From assembly GCF_003097315.1 (NCBI RefSeq), contig NZ_QDDL01000002.1, forward strand, positions 372,001 to 436,000: a stretch of DNA of 64,000 nt. The letters are read 5' to 3'. Both the position numbers and the translations under genes were made by a program. This document shows positions 1,021 through 19,464 of the stretch, piece by piece. The stretch is from Pelagibaculum spongiae. GTDB taxonomy: Bacteria; Pseudomonadota; Gammaproteobacteria; Enterobacterales; Pelagibaculaceae. How positions within the stretch are numbered: the stretch's first letter is position 1; each line of letters opens with the position of its first letter. A model generated the notes under the pieces. It made no database searches. It was not told the origin of the DNA and saw nothing but the letters and a program-made list of their open reading frames with translations.

Positions 1021-4000
1021 TTATTCTCCTTCAATCCAGAAGGTTCTCTGGCCAAGAGGTCCAAAATCAAGATCATCAAGTACTTTCTCACCACCGACAA
1101 GCACTACAGGGTCACCCCCATCAGGAAACAAGACAGTCGGCGCCGGAGGGATTACTTGACTAGCTAACGACAGCCGACGATCATCAGTATCCGGTGCGAT
1201 AGATAGATCTCCATCTACATCGATAACTGGCGCCCCGGTATCAACACTAAAGGCATAGATTCTTGATGTACCACTTCCAGCAGAGCAACTAATTGCTGAG
1301 GCAGATGGTTCATAGGTAGTAAATAATACTTGGTTATTGACAGTTCTTGCTTGTGACAGCGCCTTCTCCCCATCGTCTTCAAGCTGAATATAAAAACCTT
1401 TTGTAGTGGCAGCATTTAAGTTTGCACTGCTGCTTTCTGTTCCTTTTCCGATCAAATTATCTGTTGCATCATACAGAGTAGATTCAGTTAAAGTTGCCGG
1501 ATATGTTGAAGGAATATTAGAAACATTATTATCGCGAATAATATATAACCGGTCATTTACCACATCATCCAAAGGATGGCTTCTCCAACCAGAACCGATC
1601 GAAAGTGTTAATCGATTATTGTTCAAAGAAACATCTGGCGCATAAAAGAATCTACGGTTATTTGCTGCTGTAGTGCCCGATACACTTGCCATTATATGAC
1701 CCGTTACCAACGTTGACGCTGGCTGGCCATTTTTAATATCAAACCGCCAAACCTGCCCCCCCATATCACCAAAATAAATTCGGTCAGCTAAACCATCAGC
1801 AGAAGTGTCTAACACTGATAATTTAGATGGTATAGAATAATCCATTCCAGTGAACGTTTGCGTCATACCAGCCGCACTAGCAGAACCACCAGCCCAAAGC
1901 TTATCTCCAGTTTCAGCATCCACAATATAAATTGCACGCCCTTGACCATCAGCTGACTTAGTTGTCGCAGTATCTTGAGAAGTGTCGTAACCCGCGCCAA
2001 AAATTAATACATCTTTAGTTTCTGTACCAATAAGGATTTTGGTAATAATCGGCTGCGACCAACTCTGTCCTATTTCAGTATAATCACCAACGCCGCCTGA
2101 AATCCGCCACATATGAGCAGGAGCAGATCTATTAGTCACATCCAGTGCGTAGTAGTCATTACCACCACGCCGTAACCCGAAATATAAATAAGCCCTATCA
2201 GCTGCCCCGGAAATTACTCCATTATTATTTCCATCTACAACCCAACTAGTAATCTGACCATCTACACCGTATGGAATAGAATCTCCTATCTGGTTTTCTT
2301 TTAATATTTTTAATTTAGAGAGTAATCCATTAGGTAAATATGAAAAATGCTCGGTACCGTCGTCTGCATCAAATGCATGCAATAAACCATCATTAGTTCC
2401 GACAAAAATTGATTCGTCATTTTCACCATAACTAATTACGACTGGCTCGCCATGCAACGGTGCACCTATATAAGGCCTGATATCGCTAGTAGACGTGTCA
2501 CTATCAGCATCATTAACATCAATACCTCTAGCCCAGCGAAGAATATCTGATCTATCCGCAGCGTCATCTGCTCCTAATGCTGCGATAGTAATCGTCGAAT
2601 TATTTTCAGAAATAGTATTACTAGCATCAGAAAGAGCATCGCTAGAAATCCTAGAGTAAACCTTCCTTCCAGTTAGTGATAACTCACCACTTGCACCGCC
2701 TAAAGTTACTTCATTGCCATCAACGCTATCGCTCCAATAACTTTTACTGGTCGCTCTGAAAAAACCTGTCGATGCATCCATTGCTTCATTGCCATTAGCA
2801 TCCGCTATCTCACCAGTAGCTGAATCAACTCGATATTTTTTTAAATTTCCTAGCCATTGAGGGCGGTCATCCGGGCGGAATAAACTGAAGTACAAATCTT
2901 CATTATGAGAAAGGCGACTAAATTGATTAACTGAAATACCTGCGCCGGCAAATGCTGCGCCAGTAGTAGCAACTCCACCGATGATCTGTTCAAATACATC
3001 AACTAATGCATCCGCTTCTGATTCAGCAAAATAAGAACCTAATCCAGCTGCAGCTAAACCACTTAAATAAGTACTGCTAAAATCAAACCCAACGGTAAAA
3101 GTTCGAACAACCTGCATACCAGTTTCGCTAGATGATTGGTCAGTTGTTGCCATATACGAAAGCAATTGGCTGCCACATACACCACCACCAGATCCGGTAC
3201 AAGCATTACCCCCGCCAACCAAGGCCTGTATATCAGCTTGGCTATTATTTATCCCTGTTGGTGCTCCATCGGTAATTAAAACGTTATAGCTTTGCTGGCA
3301 TTGATGTGCGATAGGTGAAATGTACGCTGGACTTCCAGAAATTAATTCATTAGCACAAGCAATATTATTTAAATCATCTGCAGAGCAGCCTGCAGGCTGG
3401 GTTAATGTACCGCCAGTATATGACGCAGGATGCGACACCCGGAAGAAGCGTTTCTCATCTGCTATTGCAGGTGTTCCTTCTTCAGTCTCACTATTACGCG
3501 TTTTACCAAAACCTACAGGGCCACCAGACCAATATTGCTGCGCTTCATAAAACGTTTCAACAATTGGTGTGCCTTCATTTAAATTATCTGAATTAATATT
3601 ACTAACAATTTGTTTTAATCTTTGTCGAACTGTTGTCGTTTCAGGATCATTCGTTCCTTTAAAACGTACAGTTAATCTAGGCCTTACTGCAGCGCTTACC
3701 GAACTGTAAATACGATTTCCTGTTGTAACATTTGGAGATAATATCAAGGATAAACTGTTTCCACTTGCCCAGCCAGATCGAGAAACAACCGCTTCAACGA
3801 CACTCTCTAAATCAGGACTTACATGACTTTCACCACCTACTGTTTGGTTAGGAAGATCCCAGGTCACGCTACTACTCGTTGTTGAACGGTTAGAAATAGT
3901 GGCTATGGATGCATTAATAAATCCTGCTGAATTATCGGTATTTTCCCCCTTAATTATTACCGATGCAGCTGAAGTACCTTTAGAGGGGCATGCAGAAGGA

Positions 4001-5253
4001 TCAATAATAACGCATTCAATTCCATAGTTTGGATCAATCGCCTGCTCATCAACTGGCAAAGCATCAAAACTGGTCACCAACCTTAAATCACTGGATACAA
4101 TATCAGTACCCTGGGGAATTGTTACATTTTGAAATCTAAAGCCCAATATCGAATTTGTGTTTCTACCTTCATCTCTGGGTGTATTCAAGCTGCCATCTGA
4201 AGAATGAACATAACCATTAGCTTCGGATGCATTAGAAGAGCTAACATATTCTTCAGCGTCATCAGGTTCATTTACACCATAAAAGACCCTTTCAATTTCC
4301 TGGCAACCCGTAGCCCCAGATCGGTCATAGGTTATATCCAAGCTAGGCTCAAAAGCATCATTCGCGTTAAATGAAATCAATTCTCTTAAATCTGATCCCG
4401 CATCAATTTTTATAAATACCGCAATATCATTTCCACCACACCAACCCGAATCATTAATTAACGACTGAATATTGGTGGTAATTGAGGGTGACGTGACCGC
4501 TTGTGTAGTAGACCATTCTTCTGTTGACGGCACAGACCAATCAGGGCCTGACCCTGATGCCCAGCGCGTAGCCATTGCTGTACCTCCCTGCGAACCATCA
4601 GGAAGATCATCAGGCGTTGGATCTTGCTCAATACGAATTTGGTAAGTAGTTTCTACGCTGGTTGTTGTTGATGTGCCAGCATGAAAAACTAGCTCTGCTG
4701 CATTGATTGTAGCTCCCTGAGGAACCGCAACATTTCTGAAAACCAGACCAATTTGCCGCTCATATTGCGTAAGCCCAGGAGCTCGAGCTAATGTTGTTGA
4801 AGAACTCGATGCGAAATTTGATGCGATTATAAATGCTTCAGTGTCGTCAGCACCGGTCTGAATAGGCGTTGTAACAAGTTGGCCACCAGACCCACCACCA
4901 CAATTCCCTTCTATATCACAAGCCAGCGCATCAACATCTGCCACCGGAAACAATATAGCCCCACCAGGATTGGTAAAGCGCATTATCCCCATATTAACGT
5001 CAGCAGATGCATCCAAGATGGTATCAAGTGCGTCTTTAAGTATATTTAAGCGGGATCTCATCAATGAATCGGTAACAACCGTTTCAGTCATGGATTTTGA
5101 TGTGTCCAGAATAATTAATACATTAGGATTTACCGAAGAGCTACTTTGAGTAAAAACTTCAGTATCATCTGCCATTACTGCCGAAATCAGCAACGCTGTC
5201 AGTAGAAAACTTGCAGCGGTAGATCTGGATAATTTTAGAATAACCTGCAACAT
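1021..5253 (-). CDS. pilY1: PilY1-type type IV pilus tip adhesin
   Basis: A 1410-residue secreted protein. Residues 1-28 form a signal peptide ending near VMADD. A von Willebrand A fold begins near residue 43 with the MIDAS motif DTSKSM and resumes near residue 650 with [11 protein letters not shown]. The C-terminal third (about 920-1390) is the PilC/PilY beta-propeller, with [28 protein letters not shown] and a calcium loop DTSADGLAD followed by [13 protein letters not shown], matching the loop needed for PilY1 function in pilus extension and retraction. Between the two VWA halves sit two similar beta-rich segments (about residues 150-310 and 340-545). A GGAGGAAGG ribosome binding site precedes the ATG. 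PilY1 sits at the pilus tip and acts in adhesion, surface sensing and pilus priming. Confidence 0.93.
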
Positions 5254-5408
5254 CAGCCTTCCTCCGTGACGGCAAAAAGATGTCCCTAATCACCGAAAGC
5301 ATAGAAGTGCTGCAAGCAAAATGACTCTGTCTGACCATTTTTTTTTATGTTTGCCGTCATTCGGTGTTAAAACACCGATCAACGAAGAAGCCATTGAAAA
5401 ATAAGCAA

Positions 5409-5430
5409 TAAAAAAGCCGCAGTGCGGCTT
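5409..5430 (-). terminator. Terminator of the CsrB-like RNA
   Basis: On the minus strand AAGCCGC-ACT-GCGGCTT forms a 7-bp stem with a three-base loop followed by a run of T. The A-run is only on the left side of the plus strand, so it serves minus-strand transcription, matching the orientation of the hairpin array. Confidence 0.85.
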
Positions 5431-5748
5431 GATTAGATTACTTCGAACTTAAATTGCAGCTAGCCCATCCTTGGGCACTTTGTTTAAAAGTTCTGCATCC
5501 TGCAGATACTGCTTCTGGCCAATGTGCACATCCTGTGCTGCGGCATCCTGCCGATTTGTCCAAGAACATCCTGTCCCAAGCATCCTGCTGTTAGCGCTTC
5601 CTGCGCCTATGGTCTTCCTGTTCTTCCTTGATAGTACATCCTGTACCTAGTAAACCAGTCGCTTCATGCGAAACACTTCCTGTGTTTATGCTTCCTGCAC
5701 TCAGACTTACTATTTCTTCCCTGACGGCTAGCGTCCTGCCAACCGCTA
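5409..5748 (-). ncRNA. csrB: CsrB/RsmZ-like CsrA-sequestering small RNA
   Basis: Read on the minus strand, this intergenic stretch holds 13 AGGA motifs in about 300 bases, 11 of them in the CsrB repeat form CAGGANG (six CAGGATG, four CAGGAAG, one CAGGACG). Most sit in the loop of a short perfect hairpin: examples are CTGC-AGGAT-GCAG, GCAC-AGGAT-GTGC, GGC-AGGAT-GCC, GCGC-AGGAA-GCGC, GTAC-AGGAT-GTAC and ACAC-AGGAA-GTGT. The array ends in a Rho-independent terminator at 5409-5430. The length, about 340 nt, is close to CsrB (369 nt in E. coli). Such RNAs bind many CsrA/RsmA dimers and relieve their control of motility, biofilm and carbon storage. The 5' end is an estimate: a weak TAAATT -10 lies at 5755-5760. 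No GacA box (TGTAAG-N6-CTTACA) was seen upstream. No open reading frame competes for the region. Confidence 0.88.
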
Positions 5749-5910
5749 TTGATGAATTTAGCAAAGAACTGGATTACAACAAGCTGTCATAATTTAGAAA
5801 CTTTCCAGCAAGGTAGTACAGATCATTCAGCTAGCACACAAAAAATCATAAATAACAACAGGTTAAATAATAACCTTCAATAAAAAGACAACCGAGATGA
5901 CTTTAAAATT

Positions 5911-5926
5911 TATGATATTTATCACA
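5911..5926. promoter_or_regulatory. CRP/Vfr-like operator candidate
   Basis: The palindrome TATGATATTTATCACA resembles the CRP consensus TGTGATCTAGATCACA in both half sites (TATGA and TCACA, 6-base spacer). It lies about 150 bases upstream of folE and about 160 bases upstream of the estimated csrB start, in a 330-base gene-free stretch (5749-6078) that otherwise shows nothing clear. A Vfr/CRP homologue is encoded at 18.8 kb. This is a by-eye match only. Confidence 0.35.
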
Positions 5927-6078
5927 AACAGGGTGCAATGACTGGCAAACACAATGGTCAATGTCGCAAGCCACCTTTTAGCCCATCTTAAACTGGCCAA
6001 AAGTTCCTGTTGCGGTGCTTTATGTTAGTCTTGGCGCAAAAGAACACCGCTTAGACCCTTCTGCTTAAGGAATTAGAA

Positions 6079-6633
6079 ATGACCGACCAAATTGCTGATC
6101 ACTACCTGAAAATCCTTTCAGCCATTGGAGAAGATACAACTCGCGATGGATTAAAGGATACTCCCCAGCGTGCTGCAAAGGCCTTTAAGTATTTAACCAA
6201 GGGTTATGATCAATCACTGGATGAAGTGGTAAATGGTGCTATTTTCGAATCTGACAATGATGAAATGGTAATTGTCAGAGATATCGAACTCTATTCGATG
6301 TGTGAACACCACCTATTACCATTCATTGGCAAGGCTCATGTTGCCTATATACCCACGGGTAAAGTAATTGGTCTTTCCAAGATTGCTCGAATCGTTGACA
6401 TGTTTGCCCGTCGCCTGCAAATTCAAGAACAGTTAACCAAACAAATTGCTGACAGCATTATGTCAGTGACTGGTGCCAGGGGCGTTGGTGTCATAGTCGA
6501 AGCTAAACACATGTGCATGATGATGCGTGGCGTTGAAAAACAGAACTCATCCATGACTACATCTATGATGACCGGATTATTCAGAACCGACCCACGCACC
6601 CGCTCGGAGTTCTTAAAACTAACTAACCGGTAA
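6079..6633 (+). CDS. folE: GTP cyclohydrolase I (type IA)
   Basis: Converts GTP to 7,8-dihydroneopterin triphosphate, the first step of tetrahydrofolate and pterin synthesis, in the cytosol. The 184-residue product has the zinc and substrate motif CEHHLLPF (Cys75, His77, His78), a later zinc-ligand Cys in [11 protein letters not shown], and the C-terminal [10 protein letters not shown] segment, all as in the family. Length is normal. An AAGGA ribosome binding site lies 8 bases before the ATG. folX follows after 7 bases, so the two are almost certainly one transcript and probably feed a pterin branch such as tetrahydromonapterin. Confidence 0.96.
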
Positions 6634-6640
6634 AATAATA

Positions 6641-6997
6641 ATGATCAGGGTTAAAATTCAAAATTTGCGACTGCGTACTTATATTGGATTCAATGAAGCC
6701 GAACAAAAAAACCGGCAAGATGTAGTTATTAATATTGAATTTTGTTACCCGAAGAATGATGCTCGTTTTAGCGATGACGTAACCGATGCGGTCAATTATC
6801 GAACCATTAGTAAACAGGTGATTACACTGGTAGAAGATGGTCGCTTTATGCTGCTGGAAAAGCTATGCCAGAGTATTCTTGATCAGGTTCAGGACAATCC
6901 TGGTATCACCAGCGCCCGAGTTGAAGTTGAAAAGCCTCATGCTCTCAGGTTTGCTGATTCCGTATCAGTTGCCCTTGAATACCAGAATCAGGCTTGA
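6641..6997 (+). CDS. folX: Dihydroneopterin triphosphate 2'-epimerase
   Basis: A 118-residue member of the FolB/FolX tunnelling fold. It resembles E. coli FolX more than FolB: NLRLRTYIG, NRQDVVINI, AVNYRTISK, RFMLLEKL and KPHALRFADSVS line up along the full length. It would epimerise dihydroneopterin triphosphate to the monapterin form, the branch towards tetrahydromonapterin, used by phenylalanine hydroxylase in Pseudomonas. It starts 7 bases after folE. No strong ribosome binding site is visible, suggesting coupling to folE. FolB aldolase activity cannot be excluded from sequence alone. Confidence 0.88.
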   Translation: MIRVKIQNLRLRTYIGFNEAEQKNRQDVVINIEFCYPKNDARFSDDVTDAVNYRTISKQVITLVEDGRFMLLEKLCQSILDQVQDNPGITSARVEVEKPHALRFADSVSVALEYQNQA

Positions 6998-7108: not shown

Positions 7109-9178
7109 ATGATAAAACGCTCTCTGCTCCTCGCAGCTGTAATCTTTTCCAGCTTGCCTGTATTAAGCCAGGCCAAGCCGCTTGATATCGATGACTGGGT
7201 CAGCGATTTAAAGCCAAACCAGCGCTATTCTCAGTCCAGCCGGGAAGTGCTCCAGCTATTACGTCGCAATCATTTTGTAAATTTTGATCTTGATGACAAA
7301 CTTTCTCAGCAAGCATTCGACGCTTACATCAAATCACTCGATGGCAGCCGTTCGTACTTTCATCAGAATGACATCAAGCAATTGTCAGCCTGGAGAAGCG
7401 AGCTAGATAATCAGCTCAGTCGAGGAAAGCTCGAACCCGCCTTTGAAATATTTAACCGTTATCGCAGACGCGTTGCTGAAAGACTGATTTTTTCGATTGA
7501 TCTATTAGAAAACCAGTTCGATAAAATCGATTTCAAAAAAGATGAATCTTTAGTCATCGACCGATCAGAAGCCCCATGGGTTGCCAATAAATCTGAACTG
7601 CAAGATATCTGGCGCAAGCTGATTAAAAATGACATTTTGAGCTTGAAGCTATCTGGAAAGAAAAATAGTGAAATTCCAGAGCTATTAACCAAGCGCTATA
7701 AAAATCAATTAAAAAATAACAAACAATATCGAAGCGACGACGTCTTCGGCACTTTTATCAATGCCGTTACTCAAAGTGTCGATCCCCACACCAGCTATAT
7801 GTCACCACGGCAATCAGAGCAATTCGACATCAGCATGAGTCGATCGCTGGAAGGCATTGGTGCCGTTCTTCAAAAAGACAACGAATTCACTAAGGTTATC
7901 CGGCTAGTTACTGGCGGTCCTGCAGATAAAGCCGGTGAATTAAAGCCAGGCGATAAAATCATTGCTGTCGGCCAAGGTAACGACGGTAAATTAATCGACG
8001 TAATTGGCTGGAGATTGGATGACGTTGTTCAGTTAATTCGTGGCAAGCGAAATACCATTGTTAGCCTACAAGTTACTGGCAGTGATACTACCCAGCCTCC
8101 CAAGCAAATTAATATTACGCGTAAAAAAGTTGAACTCGCAGACCAGATAGCCAAGAAAAAAATTATCACCGTCACTGGCGATGATAATCAGCAATACAAA
8201 ATTGGCGTGATCGACGTTCCCACCTTTTATCACGATTTTGAAGCTTATAGAAAGGGTGACCCAAACTACCGAAGCACCACCCGCGATGTTCGCCGTCTAC
8301 TCAACGAACTAAAGAAAGAAAAGGTTGATGGTTTAATTGTTGATCTTCGAAATAACGGCGGCGGATCACTAAACGAAGCCAACAGTCTTACCGGTTTGTT
8401 TATCCCTAAAGGCCCGACCGTTCAAATCAAAACCGAAAATGGTCGCGTGGAACAGCTACAAGATAACGATCGCAATGAAATCGCTTGGCGCAATGGCATG
8501 GCAGTATTAGTTAATCGGTTAAGTGCTTCTGCTTCTGAAATATTTGCCGGTGCGATTCAAGATTACAATCGCGGCTTGATTATTGGTGGCCAAACATTTG
8601 GCAAGGGCACCGTTCAACGGCTTGAACCATTAAAGAGCGGTACTTTGGGTCGGTTAAAACTCACCAATGCAAAGTTCTATCGTATCTCTGGTGATAGCAC
8701 TCAGCACCGAGGCGTTTTACCTGACATAGCTTTCCCATCATTGTTTGATAAAACTGAAGTCGGTGAAAGCTCTCTGCCTTACGCACTGCCTTGGGATAGA
8801 ATTAATCATTTATATTATATAAAACAGCCTCCACTGAAGCCTTTATATAGCCTGCTAAATAAAAAACATGAATCTCGAGTCAATGACGACCCAGATTTTC
8901 AGTATGTAGTTAACTTCATAGAATATGATCACAAACAGCGTAATCGGAAAGTATTATCACTAAATGAAAGCCAGCGGCAGACTGAAAGTGATTCTCGTAC
9001 CGACTTCCAGCTTGAGTTAGAAAATACTCGACGCTCTGCTTTAGGTTTGAAAACACTAAAAACTATTGATGACATTGATAAAGATGATGACCGAGATCCT
9101 TACTTAAAAGAAACCGGTAATATTTTGGTCGACATGATTATTTTACAACGGCAACAATTCGCTGCGACCAATTCGTAA
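7109..9178 (+). CDS. prc: Tail-specific periplasmic protease Prc (C-terminal processing peptidase, S41A)
   Basis: A 689-residue secreted protease. Residues 1-22 are a signal peptide (SLLLAAVIFSSLPVLSQAKP). An N-terminal helical region is followed by a PDZ domain (about 235-325, starting at SRSLEGIGAVL) and the S41 catalytic domain with DLRNNGGG, the nucleophile in SASASEIFAGA (about Ser476) and the general base in FGKGTVQ (about Lys499). The C-terminal DUF3340-like extension is present, so it is the full Prc/Tsp form. Prc trims lipid-anchored and peptidoglycan-remodelling proteins in the periplasm, for example MepS and FtsI in E. coli. AGGAA lies 9 bases upstream. The gene ends at a strong terminator shared with the convergent gene. 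Confidence 0.95.
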   Translation: MIKRSLLLAAVIFSSLPVLSQAKPLDIDDWVSDLKPNQRYSQSSREVLQLLRRNHFVNFDLDDKLSQQAFDAYIKSLDGSRSYFHQNDIKQLSAWRSELDNQLSRGKLEPAFEIFNRYRRRVAERLIFSIDLLENQFDKIDFKKDESLVIDRSEAPWVANKSELQDIWRKLIKNDILSLKLSGKKNSEIPELLTKRYKNQLKNNKQYRSDDVFGTFINAVTQSVDPHTSYMSPRQSEQFDISMSRSLEGIGAVLQKDNEFTKVIRLVTGGPADKAGELKPGDKIIAVGQGNDGKLIDVIGWRLDDVVQLIRGKRNTIVSLQVTGSDTTQPPKQINITRKKVELADQIAKKKIITVTGDDNQQYKIGVIDVPTFYHDFEAYRKGDPNYRSTTRDVRRLLNELKKEKVDGLIVDLRNNGGGSLNEANSLTGLFIPKGPTVQIKTENGRVEQLQDNDRNEIAWRNGMAVLVNRLSASASEIFAGAIQDYNRGLIIGGQTFGKGTVQRLEPLKSGTLGRLKLTNAKFYRISGDSTQHRGVLPDIAFPSLFDKTEVGESSLPYALPWDRINHLYYIKQPPLKPLYSLLNKKHESRVNDDPDFQYVVNFIEYDHKQRNRKVLSLNESQRQTESDSRTDFQLELENTRRSALGLKTLKTIDDIDKDDDRDPYLKETGNILVDMIILQRQQFAATNS

Positions 9179-18768: not shown

Positions 18769-19464
18769 TTAACGAGTACCGAAAACCACGATCGTCTTGC
18801 CCTTTACTGAAATCAAACCTTCTTGTTCCAGTGCCTTGAGCATTCGGCCAGCTGTTTCACGAGTACAGCCAACAATCTTGCCCAACTCTTGACGGGTAAT
18901 TGAAATTTGCATCCCATCGGGGTGTGTCATTGCATCGGGTTCTTTACATAAATCGAGCAAAGTACGTGCAATTTGACCGGCAATATCTAAAAACGCCAAT
19001 CGCCCAACTTTTCTACTAGCATGGGTTAATCGCTTACTAACTTGAGCACCTAGGTAGAGCAACATATCTTTCTGCTCAGCTAACAACTGCCCTTCCAACA
19101 AATTATGTAAATGCTTGTAACTGATGGATGCGATCACACATGGACTACGAGTTCGAACAGTGACATTGCGCTCTTCATTTTCAATGAAAACACCTGTTTC
19201 ACCTATGTACTCACCTGCATTGATATAAGTAAGAATAAGTTCATTGCCATCATCATCCTCCAACACTACTGCCACTGAGCCTTCTACCACATAAAACAAG
19301 GTGTCGGCTGAATCTCCTGGGCAGATAATATTGGTCTTGTTTGGATACTTACGCTGATGACAAAAGCTGAGAAACTTCTCCAGCCAGTATTCTTGCTGCT
19401 TGAATTGCAACTTTATCATTTTGATTCCGGTCCCGTTTTGCTTCTCTCTCCGGTGTCTGGCCAT
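18769..19464 (-). CDS. vfr: CRP/Vfr family cAMP-responsive regulator
   Basis: A cyclic-nucleotide-binding domain (about 20-130, with GEYIGETGVF at the phosphate-binding cassette) is followed by a winged helix. The C-terminal third, DAMTHPDGMQISITRQELG, IVGCTRETAGRMLKALEQEGL and VKGKTIVVFGTR, matches Pseudomonas Vfr and E. coli CRP almost residue for residue, including the recognition helix. It should bind TGTGA-N6-TCACA sites and act globally on virulence, motility and catabolism. The start is uncertain: ATG at 19464 has AGGAG 10 bases upstream; ATG at 19419 (MIKLQF) has GGAAT 6 bases upstream and is closer to the family length. The phosphate-binding Arg-Ser/Thr of CRP is replaced by a NVTVRT stretch, so cAMP dependence is likely but not certain. 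Confidence 0.9.
   Translation of the reverse strand: MARHRREKQNGTGIKMIKLQFKQQEYWLEKFLSFCHQRKYPNKTNIICPGDSADTLFYVVEGSVAVVLEDDDGNELILTYINAGEYIGETGVFIENEERNVTVRTRSPCVIASISYKHLHNLLEGQLLAEQKDMLLYLGAQVSKRLTHASRKVGRLAFLDIAGQIARTLLDLCKEPDAMTHPDGMQISITRQELGKIVGCTRETAGRMLKALEQEGLISVKGKTIVVFGTR

Follow-up and report, generated by a model that had tools for sequence, protein, structure and literature searches.

The minus strand of the DNA stretch analyzed here (64,000 nucleotides, hereafter the window) very probably carries, at 5405–5748, the gene for a small RNA of the CsrB type, about 340 nt long, that would titrate CsrA and would most likely be switched on by UvrY and IHF. The transcription, start site, CsrA binding, control and affected processes implied by this reading are predictions from sequence; the 5′ end is put at about 5748, and the 3′ end is placed at the terminator. 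The initial annotation had assigned the segment to the CsrB/RsmZ family. This assignment is borne out by a full-length, sub-gathering match to the Rfam model RF00018, by an excess of both motifs and hairpins, by an intrinsic terminator, and by genes for CsrA, UvrY and a BarA-like kinase in the same genome. The RNA is a divergent member of the well-known CsrB family, otherwise ordinary in kind, that was missed at the default cut-off.

Between 5405 and 5750, the minus strand contains 16 GGA, 13 AGGA, 11 CAGGA and 11 CAGGANG motifs, confirming the thirteen AGGA and eleven CAGGANG counted previously. Dinucleotide-preserving shuffles (n = 5000) yielded means of 7.03, 2.75, 0.79 and 0.23, respectively, and none of them reached the observed counts (0/5000). 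Across the minus strand of the window, the runner-up 340-base stretch contained 7 AGGA, and for CAGGANG the runner-up contained 3.

Most motifs had also been described as lying in small hairpins, and the flanking sequences agree with this. At least two further complementary pairs flank 10 of the 11 CAGGANG cores if G-U pairs are counted (8 of 11 if pairing is restricted to Watson-Crick), and when the flanks were shuffled with the cores held fixed, 10 paired cores were reached in 0 of 5000 cases. The stems differ in sequence yet are complementary (e.g., gtaCAGGATGtac, gcgCAGGAAGcgc, cggCAGGATGccg and gcaCAGGATGtgc), a complementarity among the repeats of one RNA and not covariation across species. 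The first hairpin (5724–5746, minus strand) has the loop AGGAC and 9 pairs, G-U included; it lies 5′ of the Rfam match, and its GGA is unpaired with P = 1.00. The other 10 CAGGANG motifs, together with one CAAGGATG hairpin, are located at 5463–5700 (minus strand) and are presumed CsrA-binding sites. The best stem comprises at least 4 pairs for 12 of the 16 GGA and at most 3 pairs for those at 5720, 5627, 5618 and 5561, and the GGA at 5576 is mostly paired in the ensemble. Ensemble calculations gave a mean probability of being unpaired of 0.75 for GGA bases versus 0.41 for the whole RNA. As a whole, the RNA folds only modestly better than shuffled sequences (z = −1.56, a stability matched or exceeded by 5 of 100 shuffles).

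Scanned with the Rfam defaults, the window yielded nothing but a tRNA. When the covariance models were run on 1.6 kb with an E-value threshold, a check that the initial annotation had suggested, RF00018 (CsrB/RsmB) matched 5691–5405 on the minus strand from end to end of the model (positions 1–356; 51.7 bits, E = 1.1e-12). The score falls below the RF00018 gathering score of 71, which is a reporting threshold set by the Rfam curators, and for this reason the default scan was silent here. Eight other Rfam families gave E-values of 2 to 9.2, i.e., chance level, and CsrB was the best-scoring model of its Rfam clan on this RNA. A search of the whole genome (4,985,720 bases in 21 contigs, 99.9% complete) with RF00018 returned one match only, which was this RNA (E = 8.3e-13; 103 of 121 candidates scored). 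The genome contains 18 pairs of CAGGANG at a spacing of 4 to 34 bases, with 10 overlapping in this RNA and 8 elsewhere; two of these 8 are near each other (C2, 305116–305247) and the rest are single, and a reversed-pattern control gave 0. The rest of the genome showed no CAGGANG array comparable to this one.

The genome also encodes proteins with which such an RNA would be expected to act. A single match to CsrA, whose absence had been named as an argument against the assignment, was found at C3 428370–428528 (92.3 bits); 52 of its residues in one stretch are identical to chain 2bti_A, and csrA adjoins an aspartokinase-type gene. A frame beside csrA (L002, 655–1191) encodes a threefold repeated peptide and may be a tRNA gene array read as protein. 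The UvrY/GacA regulator scored 292.5 bits (cut-off 280) and is followed by uvrC, a BarA-like hybrid kinase with pdxJ nearby scored 861 bits, just under the cut-off of 890, and IHF-alpha (IhfA) scored 162.5 bits (cut-off 111).

The RNA gene is located in a gap of 825 bases, previously estimated at about 800, which separates the pilY1 start (5253) from the folE start (6079). The ORF listing, which covers frames of at least 80 aa, has none within 5254–6078. Downstream, the first gene on the strand of the RNA is pilY1 (1021–5253, minus strand; PF05567, 53.3 bits), which we regard as a neighbor only. The array sits 160 bases upstream of it, and just ahead of the pilY1 start lies the GGA-rich Shine-Dalgarno sequence CACGGAGGAAGG, which could, but need not, be a CsrA site. 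The gene following pilY1 (584–1018) encodes a pilin with a match to ComP_DUS, a minor pilin of DNA uptake (69.8 bits). On the other side, folE (6079–6633, plus strand; PF01227, 264.6 bits) is divergent from the RNA, with about 330 bases between the two and no overlap, so the proposal that the RNA is encoded antisense to folE was wrong. The further neighbors named in the initial annotation are present in the window by Pfam, namely PilY1, two GGDEF-EAL proteins, flagellin and a Crp-family regulator, Vfr being the name used in that annotation.

The intrinsic terminator that had been proposed for the end of the RNA was found at 5414–5430 (minus strand), with a stem of 7 pairs running from 5430 to 5414 and the tail TTTTATT. 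A terminator scan of 5250–6080 (831 bases) gave 2 terminator-like sites versus 0.7 in shuffles; the second site is weaker and lies on the plus strand at 5463–5476. A possible, weak promoter was read by eye at 5755–5782 (minus strand; TTGTTG, 16 nt, TAAATT preceded by TGC) and would put the RNA start near 5748. A sigma-70 scan of 5250–6080 returned no passing site for either the RNA or pilY1, with 1.2 found in shuffles.

The host was the sole representative of its family in the draw of 59 related genomes, and a DNA search with the RNA as query gave no homologue in the remaining 58, which belong to the same order. The same query gave no match in plasmids, and window positions 4500–6700 gave none in phages. 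With the RF00018 model, matches were obtained in at least 203 of the 394 genomes searched in the order; at least 133 of them had one over the cut-off, and 70 of the 203 had none over it. This run, which scored three candidates per genome, did not pick up the RNA of the window itself, and its count of 203 is therefore a minimum. In one family (f8), for which 28 candidates were scored per genome, 14 of 40 genomes had a match, none of them over the cut-off. We observed that the fourteen sub-threshold CsrB-like matches of this family (L118–L131) include two with 18 (L130) and 13 (L131) AGGA in 340 bases, and that five (L118, L119, L121, L122 and L124) lie, by eye, directly before the same small gene. 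No earlier report of the present RNA was found in a limited literature search.

None of the nine genomes reached from folE neighbors had an RF00018 match (for 7 of the 9, part of the candidates were scored). The closest FolE was that of Pleionea sp. CnH1-48 (78%). In 80 other folE loci, some of them with flanks shorter than 5 kb, no such cluster was found, the maximum being 5 CAGGA in 340 bases versus 11 here. Within the loci compared, the position of the RNA next to folE and pilY1 thus shows no conservation. CsrB acts in trans, and the suggestion that nearness to pilY1 and the other genes marks a locus-specific lifestyle switch is unsupported. In one of the folE loci (L053, a Halomonas MAG), 11 AGGA were counted in 340 bases (7731–8070, minus strand); these belong mostly to a GGAGCAA tandem repeat that adjoins a coding end and is not CsrB-like.

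RsmZ, RsmY and PrrB of Pseudomonas, which are shorter and have fewer GGA, function by the same mechanism of CsrA/RsmA titration. The present RNA resembles E. coli CsrB and RF00018 in its length of about 340 nt, in the CAGGA(U/A/C)G motifs in hairpin loops, in the intrinsic terminator and in the end-to-end model match, and, as in CsrB systems, CsrA and UvrY are encoded in the same genome. E. coli CsrB is described as being bound by about 18 CsrA subunits and as carrying CAGGA(U/A/C)G in loops or other single-stranded regions, with 22 GGA in total (PMC7652899), whereas 16 GGA are found here. The Pf1 sRNA of the marine gammaproteobacterium Pseudoalteromonas fuliginea is likewise CsrB-type, with dense GGA and a terminator, and is reported to have little sequence similarity to E. 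coli CsrB (PMC9927453). According to the same report, Pf1 has 21 GGA, a stated GacA-like site and laboratory support (CsrA bound, glycogen changed), in contrast to the present RNA, which is known from its sequence.

Upstream of the RNA, a candidate IHF site was identified at 5838–5865 (plus strand). It consists of an A-rich tract followed by TAACAACAGGTTA at 5853–5865, which agrees at 8 of 9 positions with the IHF consensus that we take to be WATCAANNNNTTR. Sites of this type occurred in 1.8% of 1000 shuffles of the gap, and there are 3 in the 64-kb window. A weak candidate for a UvrY/GacA inverted repeat is located at 5909–5926 (minus strand; 13/18, with at least 13 in 14 of 500 shuffles). 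No clear 18-nt UvrY palindrome was seen here, whereas the repeat is 18/18 in the enterobacterial-type L006, L007 and L010; among the remaining loci of the eight scanned, L033 had 16, L118 13, L119 15, L121 13 and L124 14 of 18. The repeat is overlaid by a CRP-like site, TATGATATTTATCACA (5911–5926, plus strand, 9/10), the sole one in the window at up to one mismatch, with 1.98 expected by chance; the Crp-family regulator gene of the window lies at 18769–19464. The strict GacA box TGTAAGN6CTTACA was matched at 8/12, a level also attained in 400 of 500 shuffles.

With a start at 5748, the candidate IHF site would be centered near −110 and the UvrY/CRP-like repeat near −170. For E. coli csrB, a UvrY palindrome centered at −183/−182 is described, along with a putative IHF site flanked by upstream and downstream UvrY crosslinking sites and an about 10-fold decrease of CsrB upon loss of IHF (PMC4682653). 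The order and spacing of our IHF- and UvrY-like candidates agree roughly with this arrangement, but each site is weak on its own and the tests were post hoc.

A 21-base AT-rich element at 5844–5864 (minus strand) has one further exact copy in the genome (L005, 1505–1525; C4, 33469–33489), directly before a tssA-type gene with the Pfam domains ImpA_N and T6SS_VasJ (type VI secretion). These are the only two sites in the genome at up to 3 mismatches. The element was considered as a special site common to the RNA sponge and type VI secretion, and this view was dropped. It occurs with 1 mismatch in one further genome (G022), and at up to 2 mismatches in 10 of 295 genomes of the order, the host's own included, versus 4 for the reversed pattern; three of the hits (L135–L137) are, by eye, coding sequence of a transposase-like frame. 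A 51-base query matched 350 plasmid records at E up to 1 and 1 phage record. Four of the plasmid matches were inspected and all were intergenic: two beside a TraY gene, one on a small mobilizable plasmid and one between arsH and a gene of arsR type. An A-rich tract with an IHF core of 8/9 is present in the window, L004, L169 and L170, but the core reaches no more than 7/9 in L005, L167 and L168. We infer that the element is a general IHF-type site, a view to which the copy before tssA (7/9) lends the least support.

In the proposed mechanism, the RNA would be transcribed from a promoter near 5750 and end at the terminator at 5414, and its AGGA loops on short hairpins would bind many CsrA dimers, so that bound CsrA would be drawn away from mRNA leaders. 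Phosphorylated UvrY, receiving its phosphate from the BarA-type kinase, would most likely activate the RNA gene, with the help of an IHF-induced bend in the DNA at about −110.

We weighed this proposal against other origins and functions of the array. It is barely conceivable that chance, low-complexity GGA-rich DNA or a relic of coding sequence produced it; the overall fold, which improves only modestly on shuffles, would be in keeping with such an origin, but neither the motif counts nor the flanking complementarity was reached in any of the 5000 shuffles made for each, and the covariance-model E-value of 1.1e-12 argues against it as well. A question within the CsrB-type reading, its chance being included in that of the reading itself, is whether an AGGA-hairpin sponge with the same mechanism arose independently by repeat growth and shares no descent with enterobacterial CsrB. 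The lack of a homologue by DNA search in the 58 genomes of the order or in plasmids and the sub-threshold RF00018 score would fit an independent origin, and for the Pseudoalteromonas Csr RNA, the possibility that it arose de novo is raised in the Pf1 report (PMC9927453). The model nevertheless aligns end to end, and RF00018 matches are spread over the order and f8 (at least 203/394 and 14/40 genomes). Shared descent is therefore the parsimonious view, and we regard independent origin as rather unlikely.

The array could also be a long leader of pilY1, with CsrA acting directly on the pilY1 mRNA as a target in cis. Its place on the same strand 160 bases upstream and the GGA-rich Shine-Dalgarno sequence CACGGAGGAAGG would suit such a leader, as would the failure of the scan to find a separate pilY1 promoter, although the scan does not discriminate between a leader and a free RNA because no promoter was found for the RNA either. 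We judge the leader very improbable, given that a terminator stands between the array and pilY1, that so many arrayed sites represent the layout of a sponge, and that the RF00018 match spans array and terminator together. There is a slim chance that read-through of the terminator supplies pilY1 mRNA with a CsrA site in its Shine-Dalgarno sequence, in which case one transcript would both relieve CsrA control and express the pilus adhesin; if so, the sponge would be coupled by design to the surface-sensing gene pilY1.

As a CsrB-type RNA, the segment would provide the Csr/Gac switch of this lineage with its central RNA; the 59 genomes drawn contained no other member of the host's family. The Rfam cut-off for CsrB passes over likely members, with 133 genomes over the cut-off among the at least 203 that have a match. 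If expressed, the RNA is likely to be the main antagonist of CsrA in its host, in which a single CsrA and a single RF00018 match turned up in our searches.
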